Assembly: GCF_000378345.1 (NCBI RefSeq)
Contig: NZ_KB899544.1
Location: 186,001-250,000 of the forward strand
Reading direction: 5' to 3'
Source: Hirschia maritima DSM 19733
GTDB taxonomy: Bacteria; Pseudomonadota; Alphaproteobacteria; Caulobacterales; Hyphomonadaceae
Length of the DNA: 64,000 nucleotides
The position numbers and the translations under genes were made by a program. Below the pieces are notes generated by a model that saw only the letters and a list, made by a program, of their open reading frames with translations, ran no database searches and was not told the origin of the DNA. Positions 1-64,000 of the stretch are shown one piece after another; the first letter of the stretch is position 1, and each line of letters begins with the position of its first letter.

Positions 1-750
1 GAGGAGGGGGCTGTTGCGCTCTTTGGTCAATCAGAAGCATTAAATGGCTTTGCTATGGAATTTGTATCCGGAGAAAATGTATATCTCTGGAAAGATCACT
101 TGCTTGATGGAATAGCAACCCCAGCAGATGCGGTCAGTGTCGCGCGTTGTTTGGGGCAGATACAGTCAGCATCGACCGCAGCCGACTTTGACCGCTCGAA
201 GTTTGAAAATCAGGATGATTTTCGTGCCCTGCGTCTTGAGCCTTATTTGACATTTCTTGTTTCTAAACACCTCGATCTAAAGGCACTTATTACAGAAATA
301 GAAACGACACTCTATGAAAGTTCAAAAGTGCTGGTGCATGGAGATGTCAGTCCTAAAAACATCATGTTCAAAAACGGTCAGCCGATATTGCTTGATGCAG
401 AGTGCGCGACTTTAGGGGATGCGAGTTTTGACCCTGCTTTCTGCATGAATCATCTAATTTTAAAGGCAGCGTATTTGCCAGACCATACCGATGAAATGTT
501 GGGACTAGTCGATGTGTTCTGGGGCGAGTATTCTTCCTGTATCGATTGGGAAGATGAGCAAGCGTTGGAGAAACGCATTTGTGCACTTTTGCCGATTTTG
601 ATGTTGGCACGTGTCGATGGGAAATCGCCTGTAGAATATCTAAAACCCAAAGCTCAAGCACAAGTTCGGGCGTTGTCAATTTCCCTTATTCAAAATCCAA
701 AATCTACAATTTCAGAATTCCTTTTGGAAGTGAAAAAAGGTCTAGTATGA
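1..750 (+). CDS. Aminoglycoside-phosphotransferase-fold small-molecule kinase (5' partial)
   Basis: The reading frame is open from the first base, so the gene is truncated by the window edge; the ATG at 55 is probably internal. The 249 visible residues hold the C-lobe of an APH/choline-kinase fold: a catalytic loop HGDVSPKN (bases about 340-360) with the catalytic Asp and metal-binding Asn, followed by LLDAE, the DFG-like metal site. The LWKxxLL motif near the start resembles methylthioribose kinase. The family phosphorylates hydroxyls of small metabolites with ATP in the cytoplasm. The stop overlaps the next gene's start (ATGA at 747-750), so the two are translationally coupled. I infer that the substrate is a sugar or sugar acid handled by the enolase-like, FAH and SDR genes downstream. 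The exact substrate is unknown. Confidence 0.75.
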   Translation, partial: EEGAVALFGQSEALNGFAMEFVSGENVYLWKDHLLDGIATPADAVSVARCLGQIQSASTAADFDRSKFENQDDFRALRLEPYLTFLVSKHLDLKALITEIETTLYESSKVLVHGDVSPKNIMFKNGQPILLDAECATLGDASFDPAFCMNHLILKAAYLPDHTDEMLGLVDVFWGEYSSCIDWEDEQALEKRICALLPILMLARVDGKSPVEYLKPKAQAQVRALSISLIQNPKSTISEFLLEVKKGLV

Positions 751-2048
751 GCTCTTCGATAATCAGCAAAGTTTTTGCACGTCGCGTGTGGGATTCTCGC
801 GGTAATCCAACTGTTGAAACAGATATTTATCTCGCAAATGGTTCGATGGGGCGCGCAATAGCGCCTGCAGGTGCATCTCGCGGGACACGCGAAGCTGTCG
901 ATCTTCGTGATGGTGGCGAGCATCTAGGCGGTATGGACGTGATGGGGGCTGTTCGTAATGTAAATGAAAAGCTAGCACCTTCATTGATTGGTATGGATGT
1001 TTTGGATCAAAAAGCGATTGATACGCAATTGATCGAGATTGACGGCACAAAACTAAAATCAGCGATCGGTGGCAATGCTATGATCGCAACATCATTGGCG
1101 ACACTTCACGCTGCAGCTGCTTTCAATGAAAAGCCTTTGTGGGCGCATGTTGCTAATGCTTATGACCGCAAGCCGACTATCCCATTGCCGGAAATTCAGA
1201 TTTTTGGTGGTGGCGCACATGCTGGTCGTCGCGTGGATGTGCAGGATTTCATGGTGATGGTGCCAGGTGCGTCGTCATTTGATGAAGCCATGGAGATTAC
1301 ATCCAATGTTTACCGCGCGGCGGGTAAAATTATGGAAGCGCGTGGTAACCTTGCAGGTGTTGCTGATGAAGGTGGATGGTGGCCAGTCTTCTCAAACAAT
1401 GAAGAAGCATTGGAAACACTGACACAAGCGATCGAAGATGCTGGCGAAGTTCCGGGTGAACGTGTGATTATTTCGCTCGATATCGCAGCTTCTGAGTTCG
1501 GAAACAAAGACGGCTATAAACTCGCTCTTGAAGATCGCGCTATTGATACAGACGGTATGATTGAGATCCTTGGCAAATGGATTGAGAAATATCCAATCGC
1601 ATCTATCGAAGACCCTCTTGCTGAGGATGATGTAGACGGGATCAAAGCTTTCACCAAAGCGTTCGGCGACAAAGTTCAGATCATTGGTGATGATTACCTG
1701 GTAACCAATGCTGATCTAGTTCGTGAAGCTGCCAAAGATAAAGCCTGTAACGCGGTGCTTGTGAAGGTGAATCAAGCAGGGACTGTATCTGAAGCAATCG
1801 ACACATTTGAAGCGGCTAATGAAGCAGGCTTCCGTTCTGTTGTGTCTGCCCGTTCGGGAGAAACTGAAGATGTGTCGATTACACATCTTTCAGTTGGTTT
1901 GGGGGCTGGTCAGCTAAAAGTGGGATCATTCACGCGCTCAGAGCGCATGGCGAAATGGAATGAGTGTATTCGCCTTCAGGAAGAAAAAGAAATTGGTGCT
2001 TTCGTAGGTGGAGAGCCGTTGAAAAACACTTGGTGGAAAAAACAATAG
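747..2048 (+). CDS. Enolase-superfamily paralogue with altered active site
   Basis: A 433-residue protein aligned by eye with enolase (2-phosphoglycerate dehydratase) along its whole length. Conserved features are the mobile-loop GASRGT (41-46), DEGG with Glu208, metal ligands Asp245, Glu288 and Asp315, Lys340 in LVKVNQAGT, and Lys391 in AGQLKVGS. Several near-invariant positions differ. The SHRSGETED motif reads SARSGETED, so the substrate-binding His is Ala368. QEFM is QDFM (Asp167), and the usual NGGxHA motif reads FGGGAHAG. A housekeeping enolase would not normally carry these changes. The start at ATG 747 overlaps the kinase stop; the longer frame from 579 only reads through the kinase gene. 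The context (kinase, FAH hydrolase, SDR) suggests dehydration of a phosphorylated sugar acid rather than glycolysis. A divergent true enolase remains possible. Confidence 0.82.
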   Translation: MSSSIISKVFARRVWDSRGNPTVETDIYLANGSMGRAIAPAGASRGTREAVDLRDGGEHLGGMDVMGAVRNVNEKLAPSLIGMDVLDQKAIDTQLIEIDGTKLKSAIGGNAMIATSLATLHAAAAFNEKPLWAHVANAYDRKPTIPLPEIQIFGGGAHAGRRVDVQDFMVMVPGASSFDEAMEITSNVYRAAGKIMEARGNLAGVADEGGWWPVFSNNEEALETLTQAIEDAGEVPGERVIISLDIAASEFGNKDGYKLALEDRAIDTDGMIEILGKWIEKYPIASIEDPLAEDDVDGIKAFTKAFGDKVQIIGDDYLVTNADLVREAAKDKACNAVLVKVNQAGTVSEAIDTFEAANEAGFRSVVSARSGETEDVSITHLSVGLGAGQLKVGSFTRSERMAKWNECIRLQEEKEIGAFVGGEPLKNTWWKKQ

Positions 2049-2063
2049 GTAGGAGACACGACA

Positions 2064-2921
2064 ATGCAATTCATACGTTTTGGAGATCGTTACGGCAAAA
2101 AGACACCATGTGTTGTTGATGCTGATGGTAAGTACATAGACATTTCTTCTATTGTTGAGGATGTAAATCCCGAAACAATCGAAGCTGGCTTAAAGGATAA
2201 AGTGGCAGCAGCTGATTTGTCTGCTCTCCCAAAATTTGATGCCGCTGGAAAGCGTCTTGCGCCGCCATCCGCTCAACCAAGAAACATTTGGTGTGTAGGT
2301 TTGAACTTCTCAGATCATGCTGCTGAAGCCGGTTTGCCAATTCCTGAGGAGCCAATTTTGTTTAACAAATCTTCTGCGACTTATTGTGGTCCGAACGATC
2401 CAATCCTGTTCTCTCCTAAAATGACGAAGCTGGACTGGGAAGTTGAGCTTGGGATCGTGGTTGGCAAGAAAACTTTGAACATCACAAAAGAAGAAGCTTT
2501 GGATCATGTTCTGGGGCTAGTGCTCGTAAATGATGTGTCTGAACGTGCTTGGCAGATGGAACGCAGCGGTCAGTGGGTGAAGGGGAAAAGCTTCCCGAAT
2601 TTCTGTCCAACTGGTCCAGTTATAAGAACACTTGATGATATTGAAGATCACAACAATCTTAACATGTGGCTTGATGTGAATGGGAAGCGTTGCCAGACAG
2701 GTAACACTGATAAAATGATCTTCGATGTTGCTACAATTGTATCTTACATGAGTGAGTTTTGTCAGTTGGAGCCAGGTGACCTAATCTGTACAGGTACTCC
2801 TCCAGGTGTCGGCGCAGGAATGAACCCTCAGCAATGGTTGAATGTTGGTGATAAAGTTGAACTTGGAATTGATGGTCTTGGTACGCAAAAACAGACAGTT
2901 ATCAATCTAGGTGACGCGTGA
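2064..2921 (+). CDS. Fumarylacetoacetate hydrolase (FAH) family protein
   Basis: A 285-residue cytoplasmic protein of the FAH / 2,4-diketo-3-deoxy-L-fuconate hydrolase family. Visible hallmarks are NIWCVGLNFSDHAAE, the acidic metal-binding WEVELGIVVG, KSFPNFCPTGP and the C-terminal GTPPGVG. The family uses Mg2+ or Mn2+ to hydrolyse C-C bonds of 2,4-diketo acids; members in sugar-acid operons release pyruvate. It lies 15 bases after the enolase-like gene with a GGAGA-type ribosome-binding site (AGGAGACACG) and overlaps the SDR start. Together with the SDR it matches the last two steps of the non-phosphorylating fuconate-type pathway. The substrate is inferred from context only. Confidence 0.85.
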   Translation: MQFIRFGDRYGKKTPCVVDADGKYIDISSIVEDVNPETIEAGLKDKVAAADLSALPKFDAAGKRLAPPSAQPRNIWCVGLNFSDHAAEAGLPIPEEPILFNKSSATYCGPNDPILFSPKMTKLDWEVELGIVVGKKTLNITKEEALDHVLGLVLVNDVSERAWQMERSGQWVKGKSFPNFCPTGPVIRTLDDIEDHNNLNMWLDVNGKRCQTGNTDKMIFDVATIVSYMSEFCQLEPGDLICTGTPPGVGAGMNPQQWLNVGDKVELGIDGLGTQKQTVINLGDA

Positions 2922-3667
2922 TGAGTAGATTTCAAAGCAAATCTGCCGTTATCACTGGTGCGGCTCGTGGTATGGGCTTTGAAATTGCAAACCAGATTCT
3001 GGAAGAGGGCGGTTCTGTGAGCCTTTGGGATTTTGATCAAGATGGTCTAAATTCAGCTCTGGATAAATTATCTTCTAAGGGTAATGTGCTTGGCCTGAAG
3101 GTTGATGTTAGCAACCTTGAAAATGTTGAAGCGGCTGCAAAAGATACGGCTGAAAAGCTTGGTGGTGTCGACATTCTGGTGACAAGTGCTGGTATTGCAG
3201 GACCAAATGCTCTCGTTGAAGAATTTCCAGCTGAATGGTGGCACCGCGTTATGGCAGTAAACCTTGGCGGTGTTTTCAATTGCTGTCGTTCTGTTGTTCC
3301 TTATATGCGCGAGAAAAACTATGGCCGTATCGTCAACGTAGCGTCTGTTGCAGGTAAAGAAGGTAATCCAAACGCGTCTGCTTACTCAGCTTCTAAAGCG
3401 GGTGTTTTAAGCCTCACAAAAAGCTTGGGTAAAGAGCTTGCGACAACAGGCATTTGTGTCAATGCAATAACGCCAGCTGTTATCAAAACCGAGATGCTTA
3501 AAGATGTAACGGAACAGCAGATTTCATACATGTTGGCCAAAATACCAATGGGCAGAATGGGAACTGTAGAAGAGGTCGCAAAGATGGCGCTTTTTCTAGC
3601 TTCAGAAGACTGTTCTTATTCAACGGCTGCTGTGTTTGATATGACGGGCGGTCGCGCGACTTACTAG
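2921..3667 (+). CDS. SDR oxidoreductase, 2-keto-3-deoxy-sugar-acid dehydrogenase-like
   Basis: A 248-residue classical short-chain dehydrogenase. TGAARGMG (nucleotide-binding TGxxxGxG) lies near residue 13, NVASVAG supplies the catalytic Ser region, and YSASK holds the catalytic Tyr and Lys. Asp at the end of the second strand (LWDFD) suggests NAD rather than NADP. ATG 2921 overlaps the FAH stop as TGATG; a GTG at 2918 is an alternative. The gene is last in the operon and is followed by a hairpin with a T-run. By analogy with the L-fucose route, it could oxidise C4 of a 2-keto-3-deoxy acid to give the diketo substrate of the FAH protein. SDR substrates cannot be read from sequence alone. Confidence 0.85.
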   Translation: MSRFQSKSAVITGAARGMGFEIANQILEEGGSVSLWDFDQDGLNSALDKLSSKGNVLGLKVDVSNLENVEAAAKDTAEKLGGVDILVTSAGIAGPNALVEEFPAEWWHRVMAVNLGGVFNCCRSVVPYMREKNYGRIVNVASVAGKEGNPNASAYSASKAGVLSLTKSLGKELATTGICVNAITPAVIKTEMLKDVTEQQISYMLAKIPMGRMGTVEEVAKMALFLASEDCSYSTAAVFDMTGGRATY

Positions 3668-5553: not shown

Positions 5554-7486
5554 ATGATGACTAATACTCCCAGCCTTGGCGTATGCTATTTTCCAGAGCA
5601 GCGATCGGAAAGTGAGTGGCAAAACGATATTGATCGTATGGTTGATCTTGGGCTTAAAAAAGTACGTATTGCTGAATTTTGTTGGTCATTAATTGAACCT
5701 GAAGAGGGGCAATACGAGTGCGGCTGGGCTTGAGGTTATTTTATGTACGCCAACTGCAACTCCCCCTAAATGGTTGATCGATAAGCATCCTGAAATATTG
5801 GCGATAGATGAGCAGGGGCGGCCTAGAAAATTTGGATCGCGACGCCATTATTGTTTTTCTTCCGTTATCTATAGAGAAAAAATGCAAGGCATCGTTCGCG
5901 CTTTTGCTGAACGCTATGGACAGAATAAATATGTGACAGCGTGGCAAACTGACAATGAATATGGTTGTCATGATACAACGCGAAGTTATTCGCAGGATGC
6001 AAAGCTTGGCTTCAGGAATTGGCTTGCTGAAAAGTATGGCAACATTTCAGTGCTCAACGAAGCGTGGGGAACTGTTTTTTGGAGTCAATTGTATTCGAGT
6101 TTTGAGCAAATAGACCTCCCGAATCTTACGGTAACAGAGCCAAATCCTTCGCATGTGTTGGATTTTTATCGGTATTCTTCTGATCAGGTGGTGTCGTACA
6201 ACAAACAACAAGTTGATATCCTGCGGGAATTATCACCCGGCCGTGATATTATTCATAATTTTATGGGTTTTTATCACGAGTTCGATCACTTCAAAGTGGG
6301 AGCTGACTTAGACATTGCTGCGTGGGATAGTTACCCAACAGGTTTCCTTGAAATGTTTTCTTTTTCTGATGAAGAAAAGAAGCGTTATTATCGTCAAGGG
6401 CATCCTGATATTGCTGCATTCCATCATGATTTATACAGGCGTTGCGGGAATGGGCGGTGGGCTGTCATTGAACAGCAGCCTGGTCCCGTAAACTGGGCGC
6501 ATCATAACTCAGTTCCTCTTCCTGGAATGATCAGATTGTGGACACATGAAGCGATTGCGCATGGAGCAGAATTTGTAACCTATTTTCGCTGGGATCAAGC
6601 CAGATATGCCCAAGAGCAAATGCATGCTGGCTTATTGAGACCTGATAATGAGCCTTCGCCCGCGTTTGAAGAGGCGCGTCAGGTTGTTTCTGAATGTGCG
6701 AACCTGCCAGATCTGAAAACAGAAAATGCTGATGTGGCACTTGTATTTAGCTATGATGCACTTTGGTTGTTTGAAGCACATCCGCAGGGAGCAAGTTGGT
6801 CTTATTCTGATTTGTGTTTTCGTTGGTATTCTCAATTACGACAACTGGGGCTAAATATTGATATAGTTGCACCAGGTGATGACTTGACCGCATACAAGCT
6901 TGTCGTAGTGCCTTCACTTCCTCACGTTGACCCTAAAACGATGGAAGCGTTGAAGCGGACCGACGCTGTTGTTTTGTTTGGCCCTCGAACGGGATCTAAA
7001 ACAGCAAATTTGCAGATACCTGAAAATCTTGCACCTGGGCCAATTCAAGAGCTTGTCCCAGTTAAAATAATTCAGTCGGAAAGTTTGTCGCCGATAGTAA
7101 ACGAAGCTGTTTCTTTCAAAGGCAAAGAGTATGAAGGACTGCAATGGTTAGACTATGTTGAGACAGATCTACCGGCGTTGGCTCAGAGGAAAACCGGAGA
7201 AGGAGTTTATTTTGGTGAGGGGCGTTATAGGCTCCTATGTACCGTGCCGGATAAGCGATTCTTAGGAGATATATTCGCAGAGTTGCTTTTTGAGGCAGAG
7301 ATTGAATTCCATCCTTTAGGTAATGATGTACGCTCCCGAATTAAGGGAGGATGCACTTATCATATGAACTATGGGCCTGAAGCCTTGCCGGAACAGTTTG
7401 GTACTCTTTTGAAAGAAAAAGATGTGGCTTTTGGGTCAGAAAACTTTGGTCCTGCTGAGGTTGTCGCGCAACTAAAGAAAGTTTAG
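5554..7486 (+). pseudogene. GH42 beta-galactosidase, disrupted by a frameshifting deletion
   Basis: Two frames together make one GH42 enzyme. The first (from ATG 5554) encodes the start of the barrel ([36 protein letters not shown]) and stops with TGA at 5731-5733. The second continues from about 5724 ([18 protein letters not shown]) to 7486 in another frame. Intact GH42 proteins carry about ten more residues (WLDxAI...LA) between these parts, so roughly 35 bases (3n+2) appear lost near 5717-5724. The downstream part keeps the acid/base Glu of TDNEYG (5957-5959), the nucleophile Glu of VIEQQPG (6470-6472), and most of the C-terminal domains. No signal peptide is visible, so the enzyme would act in the cytoplasm on imported beta-galactosides. 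A local assembly error is an alternative, although losing about 35 bases is unlike a simple base-call error. Confidence 0.85.
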
Positions 7487-20854: not shown

Positions 20855-22366
20855 ATGCAGAAATCGATTTTGATTGTTGGCGGTGGTACAGCTGGTTGGT
20901 TAAGTGCGGCTATCATTGCGGCGCACCATAAAAATCGGCCTGATGGTCAATTGAAAATCAGTTTGGTTGAAGCCGCTGATGTCCCAACAGTTGGTGTAGG
21001 TGAGGGAACATGGCCAACGCTTCGTAATACAATACGATCAATCGGAATTGACGAAAAAACACTCTTCAAAACGTGTTTTGCAGGCTTCAAGCAGGGGGCA
21101 AAATTTGTAAACTGGGCAAGCAATGATGATTTCTACTATCATCCTTTTACCGTGCCGCTTGGTTATGGGAATATAGATTTAGCGCCTTACCTTGATGATG
21201 TTGCTAGCTTTGCAAAGGAATCCAATTACCAAGAGGCTGTTTGTCAGGCGGGTTTGGCTCCGCGAGCTCCAACAGAAGGCGAATATCAAGGTATTTGCAA
21301 TTACGCCTATCATCTGGATGCTGGGGCTCTGGGTGATTTGCTTAAGAATTATTGTCGAGATGAATTAGGTGTAGAGCACATTATAGGCACGGTGCGAGAT
21401 GTGCAGCTGGGCGAAGATGGAGGCATTGCTGGTTTATCTCTTGAGAATGATGGTAAAGCTTTTGAATTGTGTGCCGATTTGTTTGTGGATTGTACAGGGT
21501 TTAGATCACTCCTGTTGGGGAAGGCGCTTGGCGTAAAGTATAAATCTGTAGATGATATTCTCTTTAATGACACAGCGTTGGCTTTGCGCGTTCCCTATGA
21601 AAACGAGAATGACCCCATTGCTTGTCATACGATCGCAGAGGGTCAGAATGCTGGATGGATATGGGATATCGGCCTCACGAATAGGCGGGGTGTAGGGCAT
21701 GTTTTCGCTAGCGATTATTTATCCGAAGATGAAGCCATGCATAATCTTCAGAATTATGTTGGTAGATCGATCGCAGATTTGGATGTGAACAAAATCAGCT
21801 TTTCCGCAGGGCATCGAGAAGTCGGGTGGAAGAAAAATTGTGTAGCGGTTGGTTTGGCAACAGGATTTGTGGAACCATTAGAGGCTACCGCTATAATGCT
21901 TGTCGAAGTCGTTGCGCGTTATGTGGCAGAGAATTTATTCTCTGATGAGGCCGCAATGGAAGTTGTATCAAAGCGCTTCAATCAGCAAATGGATTATCGT
22001 TGGCAGCGTATCGTAGACTTTTTGAAATTACACTACATGCTAACTAAGCGAGAAGAGCCTTATTGGAAGGCGCATACAAATCCTGACACAATTCCGGAAA
22101 CGCTCCAAGAAGATTTGGCTATTTGGCAGAACAGAGGTCCAATCAAATCCGACTTTGACGGCGTTGCAGAGCTTTTTCCGGCAGCGAGTTATCAATATGT
22201 TTTGTATGGGATGGGATTTAAGCCAAACTTTTCTGAGCAATCCTATTTGTATGATCAGCAACAACAAGCAAATCGCATTATTGAGAAGAATCGAACGGTA
22301 ACTCAGCAATTATTGAGGGACTTACCCCCGCATCGAAATTATATAAACCACTGGCTAAGCGCCTGA
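20855..22366 (+). CDS. Tryptophan-halogenase-like flavoprotein
   Basis: A 503-residue member of the flavin-dependent tryptophan halogenase family. The N-terminal FAD fold SILIVGGGTAGWLSA and VGVGEGTWPT are clear. The Lys equivalent to the catalytic one of PrnA/RebH is in AGFKQGAKFVNW (near residue 80), and the late FAD-site motif FVEPLEATAIML is present. The halogenase WxWxIP signature is altered to GWIWDIGL, so the Pro is missing. Proteins of this group often sit beside TonB receptors and SapC in sugar-degrading bacteria, and their real reaction is unknown. Halogenation of tryptophan should not be assumed. It lies 12 bases before sapC and is probably co-transcribed with it. Confidence 0.83.
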   Translation: MQKSILIVGGGTAGWLSAAIIAAHHKNRPDGQLKISLVEAADVPTVGVGEGTWPTLRNTIRSIGIDEKTLFKTCFAGFKQGAKFVNWASNDDFYYHPFTVPLGYGNIDLAPYLDDVASFAKESNYQEAVCQAGLAPRAPTEGEYQGICNYAYHLDAGALGDLLKNYCRDELGVEHIIGTVRDVQLGEDGGIAGLSLENDGKAFELCADLFVDCTGFRSLLLGKALGVKYKSVDDILFNDTALALRVPYENENDPIACHTIAEGQNAGWIWDIGLTNRRGVGHVFASDYLSEDEAMHNLQNYVGRSIADLDVNKISFSAGHREVGWKKNCVAVGLATGFVEPLEATAIMLVEVVARYVAENLFSDEAAMEVVSKRFNQQMDYRWQRIVDFLKLHYMLTKREEPYWKAHTNPDTIPETLQEDLAIWQNRGPIKSDFDGVAELFPAASYQYVLYGMGFKPNFSEQSYLYDQQQQANRIIEKNRTVTQQLLRDLPPHRNYINHWLSA

Positions 22367-61344: not shown

Positions 61345-62859
61345 ATGACTTCTAATGCAATCCGAAAAATAGCAATTATCGGAGGTGGATCTGCGGGGTG
61401 GATGACAGCCTCGGCGCTTTCCAATGCATTGCAGGGAAGTTGTGAAATTACACTCATTGAATCTGAAGAAATAGGCACAATTGGTGTGGGCGAGGCTACC
61501 ATCCCTCCTGTCAAATATTTCAATGCTCAACTTGGTATTGAAGAAGCTGAATTTATGCGTGAAACCAATGCAACATTTAAATTAGGGATTGAGTTTATAG
61601 ATTGGTCCAAATGTGGAAAAAGTTATTTTCATCCGTTTGGCCAATATGGTGCGGAATTTGATCAGACCCCATTTTATCAATATTGGATGCGTGAGGCTAT
61701 AAATGGCAATACAGCACCTGATATTGATGAATTTTCTATGGCTTGGGCCGCTGGCGCAAATGGCAAATTTCAACATCCGGAAAAAGATAAACGTAAAATT
61801 CAATCAACCTTTGATTATGCTTACCATTTTGATGCCAATTTGTATGCTCGCTATTTGCGTGGGTATAGTCAAAAGCGAGGAGTGCAAAGGATAGAAGGTA
61901 AGGTTGGGAATGTCTCACTGGCACCTGAAAATGGTTTTATTCAATCGGTTTCCATGGATGATGGGCGAATAATCGAGGCAGACCTCTTCATTGATTGTAC
62001 TGGATTTTACGGTGTATTGATCGAGCAATCTCTCGAAACAGGATATGAAGACTGGTCGCATTGGCTTCCGTGTAATCGCGCGGTTGCGGTGCCTTGTGAG
62101 AATGCTTCAGGGCAACTGCTTCCTTATACCAAATCTTCTGCAAATAGAGCGGGTTGGCAGTGGCGTATCCCATTACAGCATCGTATAGGCAATGGAGTTG
62201 TCTATTGTTCTGAATTTATGGGTTCAAGTGAGGCAGAGCAATCATTACTTGAGAATTTAGATGCTGAGCCACTGCAAGACCCTAGGCATTTAAAATTTGT
62301 AACTGGTCGTCGCAAAAAGTTCTGGAACAAAAATTGTGTCGCAATAGGTTTGGCGGCTGGATTTATGGAGCCATTGGAATCCACAAGTCTTCATCTCATT
62401 CAATACGGTATCATGAGGCTGTTGGCTCTATTTCCTGACAACAATTTTTCACCAATGTTAGAGCAAGAATATAATGCGCTTACTTCAGCGGAGTATGAAC
62501 GCATCAGAGATTTTCTTATTTTGCATTACAAAGCGACTGAAAGAGAGGACTCAGAATTCTGGAAGTATTGTAAAAACATGCAGGTACCAGATCGATTAGC
62601 TTATAAAATTGATCAGTTCAGAAGCAATGGAATCTTGTCTTCGGATGAACGCGAATTGTTTCATAACCCAAGCTGGATAGCAGTATATTTGGGGCAGGGG
62701 GTTTTTCCTCAACGCGCACCAGCTTTAGCAAATTATCGTAGCAAAGTACCGGTCAATGAGCGTTTGGGACAAATTCGAATAGCAATGAAAGAAGCTGTGG
62801 AGGCTATGCCCGATCACAGAGCTTATGTAGATAACTATTGTAAATCAGCTGCGCAATGA
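61345..62859 (+). CDS. Tryptophan-halogenase-like flavoprotein
   Basis: A 504-residue member of the flavin-dependent halogenase family. FAD-binding IAIIGGGSAGWMTASAL and TIGVGEATIPPVKYFN start the protein. The Lys aligned with the catalytic one is in TFKLGIEFIDW, YAYHFDANLYARYLR follows, and the WxWxIP signature is intact as GWQWRIPLQHRIGNG. FMEPLESTSLHLIQ is the late FAD/chloride-site motif. It differs from the copy at 20855-22366, which lacks the Pro. It is divergent from the DUF6445-like gene, and its end overlaps that of a convergent paralogue by 25 bases. The substrate is unknown; sugar-locus members need not halogenate. Confidence 0.87.
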   Translation: MTSNAIRKIAIIGGGSAGWMTASALSNALQGSCEITLIESEEIGTIGVGEATIPPVKYFNAQLGIEEAEFMRETNATFKLGIEFIDWSKCGKSYFHPFGQYGAEFDQTPFYQYWMREAINGNTAPDIDEFSMAWAAGANGKFQHPEKDKRKIQSTFDYAYHFDANLYARYLRGYSQKRGVQRIEGKVGNVSLAPENGFIQSVSMDDGRIIEADLFIDCTGFYGVLIEQSLETGYEDWSHWLPCNRAVAVPCENASGQLLPYTKSSANRAGWQWRIPLQHRIGNGVVYCSEFMGSSEAEQSLLENLDAEPLQDPRHLKFVTGRRKKFWNKNCVAIGLAAGFMEPLESTSLHLIQYGIMRLLALFPDNNFSPMLEQEYNALTSAEYERIRDFLILHYKATEREDSEFWKYCKNMQVPDRLAYKIDQFRSNGILSSDERELFHNPSWIAVYLGQGVFPQRAPALANYRSKVPVNERLGQIRIAMKEAVEAMPDHRAYVDNYCKSAAQ

Positions 62860-64000
62860 TTTTGAATGAAAGTGTCGTGATCAGGTAGTGGTGCTATTGC
62901 TTGTGAGATGATTGATTGGATGTCACTTATGAATTTCGAGACCTGCTCGTTAGAAAGTCTATCTGCCATAGGATGATAAGTATCAGGGATCAGCCCTTGA
63001 CCAATCATTACCTGCACCCAGCTGGATTCTTTGAATAGGTCCTCAGACTTTTTGTACAACCGACCTGATTGAGAAAACAAATCCATCTTATCCTTTAGAG
63101 TGTCTGGGATTTGCATGTGTTTACAATAGCGCCAGAATTCACTGTCCTCTCGCTGTGTCTGGTGATAGTGTAGAATTAGAAAATCTCGAATAAGTTCAAA
63201 TTCTTCTGATACTTGTCTGTTATATTCTCTGATATTGGTGTCTTCTTGAGTATTGCTTGGGAAAAGTTCTATCAGCCTTGAAATGTTTGATTGGATTAAA
63301 TGAATAGACGTTGATTCTAAGGGTTCCATGAAGCCACTTGAAAGGCCAATTGCGACACAGTTTTTGTGCCAGAATGCGTCCCTACGTCCGGTGGAAAACT
63401 TCAAATGGTTTGGGTCGCCAAGTGGTTCTCCATCCAGATTAGATAGTAGAGTATTTAGTGCTACGTCATCATCAAGGAATTCTCCACTATAGACATGACC
63501 GTTTCCAGTGCGGTGTTGGAGAGGAATTCGCCATTGCCATCCAGCACTTTGAGCTATGGATTTTGTATAGGGTAAAAGGGTAGATGTTCGTTCGCTCGGA
63601 ATAGCAATGGCGCGATTGCATGGGAGCCATTTTGACCAATCTTGATAGCCAATACCTAATGATTTCTCAATTAGTAATCCTCGAAACCCAGAGCAATCGA
63701 TGAAGAAGTCACCTTCGATAATTTCACCGTTTTGTAGTTTCACGCATTTGATATTTCCGGTGGTTTCATCAAGAAGGGTGTCTTGGATTAGTCCTTCAAT
63801 GCGAGTTGTGCCATTTTTCTCTGCGTGTTGCCTTAGGTGTGCGGAGTATAGCCCGGCATCAAAGTGAAAAGCGTAAGAAAGCCCTGTCATCGATGTTTGG
63901 CCAATGTGATCCAATCGACCGAATTTATTTTGATCTATTGCTTGTTTGTGGAGTGAAAAATCCCATAGATTTTTTGTCAAACCAAGGGATCTGGCTTTGA
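62835..64000 (-). CDS. Tryptophan-halogenase-like flavoprotein (5' part beyond window)
   Basis: The frame is open to the window end, so the N-terminal FAD-binding part is missing; 387 residues are visible. They include YAFHFDAGLYSAHLRQHAEKNGTTRIEG, DFFIDCSGFRGLLIEKSLGIGYQDW, GWQWRIPLQHRTGNGHVYSGEFLDD with the intact WxWxIP signature, and FMEPLESTSIHLIQSNISRLIELFP. It is close to the neighbour at 61345-62859 (same motif order and similar C-terminus), so the two are probably an old tandem-inverted duplication. A TonB receptor or SapC gene may lie beyond the window. Confidence 0.87.
   Translation of the reverse strand, partial: KARSLGLTKNLWDFSLHKQAIDQNKFGRLDHIGQTSMTGLSYAFHFDAGLYSAHLRQHAEKNGTTRIEGLIQDTLLDETTGNIKCVKLQNGEIIEGDFFIDCSGFRGLLIEKSLGIGYQDWSKWLPCNRAIAIPSERTSTLLPYTKSIAQSAGWQWRIPLQHRTGNGHVYSGEFLDDDVALNTLLSNLDGEPLGDPNHLKFSTGRRDAFWHKNCVAIGLSSGFMEPLESTSIHLIQSNISRLIELFPSNTQEDTNIREYNRQVSEEFELIRDFLILHYHQTQREDSEFWRYCKHMQIPDTLKDKMDLFSQSGRLYKKSEDLFKESSWVQVMIGQGLIPDTYHPMADRLSNEQVSKFISDIQSIISQAIAPLPDHDTFIQNHCAADLQ

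Follow-up and report, generated by a model that had tools for sequence, protein, structure and literature searches.

Glycolytic enolase (EC 4.2.1.11; TIGR01060, PF00113/PF03952) combines a characteristic fold and two-metal site with a lysine base, an acid glutamate (Glu208 in the numbering used here), and phosphate-binding arginine and serine residues. In the Mycobacterium tuberculosis enzyme, as described in excerpts of PMC10619443, the chemistry at C2 depends on Lys335, and that at the terminal carbon on Glu163 and Glu204. This work presents an enolase paralog that is encoded together with a kinase at the start of a 64,000-nucleotide stretch of the Hirschia maritima DSM 19733 genome (NCBI RefSeq assembly GCF_000378345.1, contig NZ_KB899544.1, positions 186,001 to 250,000 of the forward strand; hereafter the window). 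The paralog is a variant within the known fold family. It shares the fold, the two-metal site, the lysine base, the acid glutamate, and the phosphate-binding residues with glycolytic enolase but differs in forming a clade of its own, in four fixed substitutions (A368, D167, G154, and W212), in having a kinase partner, and in standing beside a canonical copy in every carrier genome checked.

The genes that follow the paralog may correspond to parts of another described system, the nonphosphorylating L-fucose/L-rhamnose route 3, which employs an L-2-keto-3-deoxyfuconate (L-KDF) 4-dehydrogenase and a 2,4-diketo-3-deoxy acid hydrolase (PMC11199699, in excerpt). The FAH-family hydrolase in the window is nearest, among solved proteins, to L-2,4-diketo-3-deoxyrhamnonate hydrolase, and many relatives of the window operon encode an SDR similar to L-KDF dehydrogenase; the present system differs in including a kinase and an enolase-type enzyme and in often lacking a linked aldonate dehydratase. 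Carboxyphosphonoenolpyruvate synthase of phosphinothricin biosynthesis is an enolase-subgroup enzyme recruited to a different reaction, for a biosynthetic purpose and on another substrate. Searches of NCBIfam, Pfam, and the PDB yielded no assigned function for the paralog clade. In literature on the kinase-enolase pair, on a second bacterial enolase function, and on L-glycerate routes, judged largely from listings, no recognizable description was found; the "enolase paralogs" of SAR202 are mandelate racemase (MR)-type enzymes (PMC6946804, in excerpt).

The paralog gene (positions 747 to 2048 of the window, plus strand) encodes 433 amino acids, matches PF00113 at 291.9 bits, and is 43% identical to the canonical enolase of its own genome. 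Its structural model (pLDDT, 87.8) aligns with solved enolases at a Foldseek TM score of ∼0.9. For residue comparison, 172 loci were matched, 6 were removed as partial or interrupted, and the 166 near-full-length proteins, minus own-genome duplicates, were divided into a paralog group of 110 rows (105 distinct; at least 50% identity to the window protein) and a canonical group of 53 rows. The initial annotation of this DNA had held that the metal ligands D245, E288, and D315 and the base Lys340 (codon at 1764 to 1766, plus strand) are kept; all four are invariant in both groups (Lys340, the conserved C2 base, in 110/110 and 53/53 rows), as are E208, R369, S370, K391, S44, H158, and Q166. It had also pointed to Ala368 in place of the SHRSGETED histidine and to Asp for Glu in the QEFM motif, and both changes proved to be fixed. 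A368 (codon at 1848 to 1850), D167 (1245 to 1247), G154 (1206 to 1208), and W212 (1380 to 1382; all on the plus strand) occur in 110/110 paralog rows and 0/53 canonical rows, the latter having His, Glu, Asn, and Ala, respectively, in 53/53. A206 is found in 108/110 paralog rows versus 0/53 canonical rows (Gly in 53/53), and W212 (for Ala) and A206 (for Gly), which both lie beside E208, are almost as diagnostic as A368, D167, and G154. Of the change reported for the NGGxHA motif, the loss of Asn (Gly154) stands, but the motif's His (H158) is retained.

By motif, D167 corresponds to Glu163 of the M. tuberculosis enzyme, E208 to Glu204, and K340 to Lys335; the Asp167 position is that of yeast Glu168. 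When pocket geometry is read from the motif equivalence to the M. tuberculosis enzyme and the roles excerpted from PMC10619443, the proton-taking side of the active site appears to be retained and the leaving-group side rebuilt, because K340 (Lys335) is unchanged while D167 (Glu163) is altered along with residues beside E208. Identical substitutions are found in loci with an FAH, in loci with a 2-hydroxyacid dehydrogenase, and in loci with neither, and a single chemistry is therefore likely.

The source genome encodes two PF00113 proteins, scoring 432.9 bits (contig C2) and 293.2 bits (the window). The canonical enolase lies on C2 (G000:C2:492355-493611, where G000 is the source genome; G and L numbers are our handles for genomes and loci), near genes that by eye are tpiA-like, pyrG-like, and pyruvate dehydrogenase-like. 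This separate copy rules out the paralog as the sole enolase of the genome and agrees with the view in the initial annotation that the paralog is not the housekeeping enzyme. Two or three PF00113 proteins were found in 28/28 carrier genomes searched, and the better-scoring one, residue-checked in 27 of these, is canonical. The 110 paralog rows form one side of a single branch (SH-aLRT, 100; 100/100 in a smaller, careful tree). Annotation pipelines label both copies phosphopyruvate hydratase because the NCBI enolase model TIGR01060 (cutoff, 300 bits) accepts both, the canonical copy at 690.8 bits and the paralog at 467.8 bits.

The nearly constant unit across genomes is the kinase plus the enolase paralog. 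Scanning 84,980 species yielded at least 587 stretches with the pattern, of which 534 encode a relative of an 81-residue query; the best 80 were kept. Together with loci from further genomes and six plasmid records, these provided 109 loci with an enolase match, 98 of which were usable (at least 1.5 kb on each side). The kinase is present in 95/98 usable loci and immediately precedes the paralog, on the same strand, in 89. It is apart from the paralog in L039, L041, L051, L139, and L140, is 331 bases away in L109, and is not in the stretch at L082, L122, and L133; the genomes of the last two (G355 and G139) carry it elsewhere. In an alphaproteobacteria-level draw of 385 genomes (thresholds, E of 1e-120 for the paralog, with canonical copies at 1.7e-109 or weaker, and E of 1e-50 for the kinase), the paralog was found in 33 genomes and the kinase in 33/33 of these plus 6 others (Fisher P = 5.6e-42, kinship not corrected). 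The class samples scored just 4 to 5 candidates per genome, such that copies could be missed. Among these 6 other genomes, G349 has a cut-off paralog, and G405 and G140 (L191 and L192) encode a deeper second enolase (40 to 41% identity) directly beside the kinase. This deeper lineage has D167, A206, and A368 in common with the paralog and Ser at positions 154 and 212, hence neither G154 nor W212; the loss of the Glu and His residues is therefore tied to the kinase in a second lineage. The enolase-kinase partnership in the initial annotation is thus near-obligate.

The kinase (333 amino acids, plus strand) occupies positions 1 to 750 of the window, and the full gene spans G000:C1:185749-186750, with a TTG start codon at G000:C1:185749, 252 bases ahead of window position 1. 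Its stop codon overlaps the ATG of the paralog in an ATGA sequence. PF01636 (58.2 bits) is its sole Pfam match, and the catalytic HGDVSPKN and DAEC motifs are invariant or nearly so in 30 relatives. An AlphaFold2 model of the relative at L059 (pLDDT, 94) has 5-methylthioribose (MTR) kinases as its top Foldseek matches, with an MTR kinase as the nearest PDB fold (TM score, 0.83; 17% identity). The window kinase thus shares its fold and motifs with MTR kinase and other APH-type kinases but differs in its low identity and in giving no NCBIfam match at an E value of 1e-10. The best phmmer E value in the PDB was 0.086 (2pyw), with 0.96 for the MTR kinase 2olc, and the protein falls outside PF13660 and PF02595, the two glycerate kinase families searched. 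Because of the PF01636 motifs and the MTR kinase fold match, we assign it as a small-molecule kinase, and we propose that it acts as a 2-O-kinase of a 2,3-dihydroxy acid.

The kinase and the paralog would then form a two-step unit. We consider it probable, from the residues and the pairing, that a 2,3-dihydroxy acid distinct from D-glycerate receives a phosphate on O2 from the kinase and then loses its 3-hydroxyl through the paralog. With the phospho-acid bound to Mg, Lys340 would abstract its proton at C2, and departure of the C3 hydroxyl would give an enol phosphate. The pocket is rebuilt on the side that handles this hydroxyl, where Asp replaces Glu, Ala replaces His, and Gly replaces Asn, and where, beside Glu208, Ala replaces Gly and Trp replaces Ala; a substrate unlike 2-phospho-D-glycerate at C3 or close to it is therefore expected. 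Alternatively, the kinase might phosphorylate O3 and the paralog expel phosphate instead of water, yielding a 2-keto-3-deoxy acid directly with no phosphatase needed. Such a reaction would account both for the altered leaving-group side and for the missing phosphatase, but R369, S370, S44, and H158, which bind the 2-phosphate in enolase, do not vary within the family, and we regard it as very improbable.

The kinase and the paralog open the kinase-enolase-FAH-SDR operon recognized by the initial annotation. Nearly gapless behind the paralog, on the plus strand, are the FAH-family hydrolase (2064 to 2921; PF01557, 231.6 bits), a proposed 2,4-diketo-3-deoxy-aldonate hydrolase, and an SDR dehydrogenase (2918 to 3667, with a start at GTG 2918 or ATG 2921; PF13561, 211 bits), the proposed 4-dehydrogenase of a 3-deoxy acid. 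The best solved relative of the FAH protein is L-2,4-diketo-3-deoxyrhamnonate hydrolase (8gsr, 258 bits), and its score against NF053535 is 330.5 bits, under the cutoff of 500. In the NCBIfam search the SDR matched general SDR families only; it is just 27% identical to the L-KDF dehydrogenase-like SDR of Paracoccus, which matches L-KDF dehydrogenase structures. No aldonate dehydratase is encoded within the four-gene operon. The two IlvD/EDD proteins of the source genome are unlinked to it and share ∼30% identity with the IlvD encoded in the L059 operon, and an MR-family gene lies ∼10 kb downstream in a separate operon. The window's own operon is also without the sugar ABC transporter, the aldose 1-dehydrogenase-like SDR, and the SDR9 seen in FAH-class relatives.

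Upstream of the kinase is a divergent LacI gene (L003:12650-13690), and a perfect palindrome, ATGTTCACGTGAACAT, stands between the two, 24 bases ahead of the kinase start. The operator motif TGTTCACGTGAACA is found in 32 LacI-kinase gaps, exactly in 27 and with one mismatch in 5. In 14 whole genomes it occurs at 14 sites in 12 genomes, compared to 0 for the reversed control. Each of these 12 genomes has one site beside the kinase-enolase operon; the extra sites lie before a sugar ABC operon located elsewhere in G444 and before a kinase displaced from the enolase in G442, and the source genome has a single site. As a putative LacI operator, the motif joins the kinase, the enolase, the FAH, the SDRs, and the sugar ABC transporter in one regulon in many genomes, and we take its distribution as direct evidence linking the kinase and the enolase to sugar uptake.

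Gene content beyond the kinase-enolase pair was surveyed in the same 98 loci; gene calls in high-GC loci came from a rough script and were counted only with a supporting homology match. A close FAH is present in 32 loci, SDR4 in 33, SDR9 in 24, and a 2-hydroxyacid dehydrogenase in 25. With a close FAH in just 32/98 loci, the four genes, the set whose conservation the initial annotation proposed to check, were ruled out as one conserved unit. A close FAH and a 2-hydroxyacid dehydrogenase never occur together (0/98). A strict exclusion of FAH from the dehydrogenase context was rejected, as it holds for the close FAH only: distant relatives (33 to 60% identity to a Rhizobium FAH) are encoded in four dehydrogenase loci (L126, L136, L139, and L140), and in G140 a 37% FAH accompanies a CtBP-type dehydrogenase. 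FAH-class loci often include a sugar ABC transporter and an aldose 1-dehydrogenase-like SDR (NF053674, 332 bits; cutoff, 400). The nearest solved relatives of the ABC binding protein are sugar-binding proteins (302 bits to 8hqq; 83 bits to a glucose-binding protein). The SDR9 of these loci is closest to structures of human BDH2/DHRS6 and of L-KDF dehydrogenase, the PDB codes of the latter being taken from excerpts of PMC11199699. In 20/32 FAH loci, one IlvD and two MR queries gave no sugar-acid dehydratase match within the locus stretch, and the paralog is therefore the only dehydratase-type enzyme seen there.

Other neighbors were rejected as pointers to the substrate, as each candidate is present in one or a few loci: a DMSP (dimethylsulfoniopropionate) demethylase (L095; L099 below the cutoff), a BhcA-like aminotransferase (L124, below the cutoff), a pyruvate kinase (L134), phosphoenolpyruvate (PEP) carboxylase (two Rhizobium plasmids), and several transporters. 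On these plasmids (L139 and L173) the kinase, a CtBP-type dehydrogenase, and a full PEP carboxylase gene lie near the paralog, and an HpaD-like dioxygenase and an HpaG-like FAH are also encoded.

In the LacI-operator class, which includes the window, the unit would serve to break down an imported aldose or the corresponding acid. The placement that we favor, tentatively, is that it acts on the aldonate itself and replaces the aldonate dehydratase. The product would be a 2-phosphoenol-3-deoxy sugar acid; the SDR would oxidize C4, rendering the enol phosphate labile, and the FAH would cut the resulting 2,4-diketo acid into pyruvate and a shorter acid. In favor of this placement are the C3-side change, the 20/32 FAH loci with no IlvD or MR match, and the canonical glycerate kinase and enolase of most carriers. 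A phosphorylated alternative to the aldonate dehydratase, as first suggested in the initial annotation, thus gains from the fixed active-site change, the kinase partner, the shared regulon, and the dehydratase-free FAH loci, but the FAH and SDR on which it drew are not constant. Its specific substrate, a 2-phospho-aldonate, is not supported as stated; an SDR and FAH followed by the kinase and enolase acting on glycerate fit the gene content almost as well.

Several findings weigh against our proposals. The paralog scores far above the NCBI enolase cutoff. Neither a close FAH nor a 2-hydroxyacid dehydrogenase is found in 41/98 loci (9 of these with SDR4), which a role in sugar acids only does not explain. 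An IlvD or MR match does appear in 12/32 FAH loci, where it would be redundant, and no phosphatase or pyruvate kinase-like enzyme is a regular neighbor. Finally, G064, G377, and G398 carry the kinase with a single, canonical-type enolase, so that pairing is not absolute and a canonical-type enolase may be able to stand in for the paralog. The last observation, along with the conserved fold, metal ligands, base, and phosphate site and the eno assignment by NCBIfam, would suit an ordinary isozyme acting on 2-phospho-D-glycerate and kept for a separate flux or its regulation. This explanation is nonetheless improbable given that three residues invariant in 53/53 canonical rows are replaced in 110/110, that a canonical copy is also present in all genomes checked, and that a kinase of unrelated fold is nearly always there.

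The glycerate reading places the unit at the tail of a pathway. An ordinary dehydratase of the IlvD or MR family, linked or unlinked, would make the 2-keto-3-deoxy acid, the SDR and FAH would release pyruvate and glycerate, and the kinase and paralog would convert the glycerate to PEP. Carriers usually have a canonical glycerate kinase and enolase already, so L-glycerate, the expected product of L-galactose-type sugars, would be the most likely form, and the enolase would have been adapted to 2-phospho-L-glycerate. Every step of this scheme closes without a phosphatase. It would also suit the IlvD encoded at ≥60% identity inside five FAH operons (L055, L059, L065, L069, and L094), the occurrence of the unit with differing feeders and transporters and in contexts without FAH, and the source genome, in which no PF13660 or PF02595 glycerate kinase domain was found. 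In the two Rhizobium plasmids, moreover, a 2-hydroxyacid dehydrogenase and a PEP carboxylase gene complete a serine-cycle order. The four families of the serine-cycle block (hydroxypyruvate reductase, glycerate 2-kinase, enolase, and PEP carboxylase) are thus together there, but with a kinase of another fold, an enolase of the altered type, and aromatic-cleavage-like genes in between. The 2-hydroxyacid dehydrogenase family is described as D-specific, which speaks against an L-acid in that context. Furthermore, 20/28 carriers already have a PF13660 glycerate kinase and 28/28 a second enolase, the 20/32 FAH loci lack a dehydratase match, and C3-side changes with an unchanged base side would fit a change at C3 better than an inversion at C2. 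L-KDF dehydrogenase accepts L-2-keto-3-deoxygalactonate at about one-fifth of its L-KDF efficiency (PMC11199699, in excerpt), and an L-galactose route ending in L-glycerate is therefore chemically reasonable. On balance we judge the tail position rather unlikely; the rest of the probability lies with other acids, other phosphate positions, or the ordinary isozyme.

Further features were observed around the locus. Sulfatase-like genes lie near the kinase-enolase operon at L003:4448-6001, L137 (annotated as such), L078, and L080, a hint that the source may be sulfated sugars. Just upstream of the window, on the minus strand (L003:6074-11758), a divergent operon beside an IclR regulator encodes a solute-binding-protein-like protein without an obvious signal peptide, two CaiB-type coenzyme A (CoA) transferases, an enoyl-CoA hydratase-like protein, and an aldehyde dehydrogenase (all named by eye save one CaiB). 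Near the kinase-enolase operons of other species are genes for relatives of the binding protein (35%, L080), the CaiB protein (47%, L096), and the IclR protein (39%, L096). Within the window, a GH42-type β-galactosidase gene (by eye; 5554 to 7486) looks broken, through either a real lesion or an assembly error: its N-terminal piece opens at 5554 and stops after 59 codons, and the remainder is open in another frame from ∼5693. Genes resembling the tryptophan halogenase family (by eye; 20855 to 22366, 61345 to 62859, and 62835 to 63998) lie amid TonB receptors and glycoside hydrolases.

The phosphopyruvate hydratase annotation of the kinase-paired clade probably conceals a further function within one of the most familiar enzyme families. 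If the unit acts on sugar acids or L-glycerate, it would add to the ways in which marine and soil proteobacteria degrade sugars, and it would let the shift of an enolase to a new substrate through a few substitutions be studied in a natural case. Should the aldonate placement be true, the paralog would represent a catabolic, nonglycolytic enolase-subgroup function across many alphaproteobacteria and some other proteobacteria.

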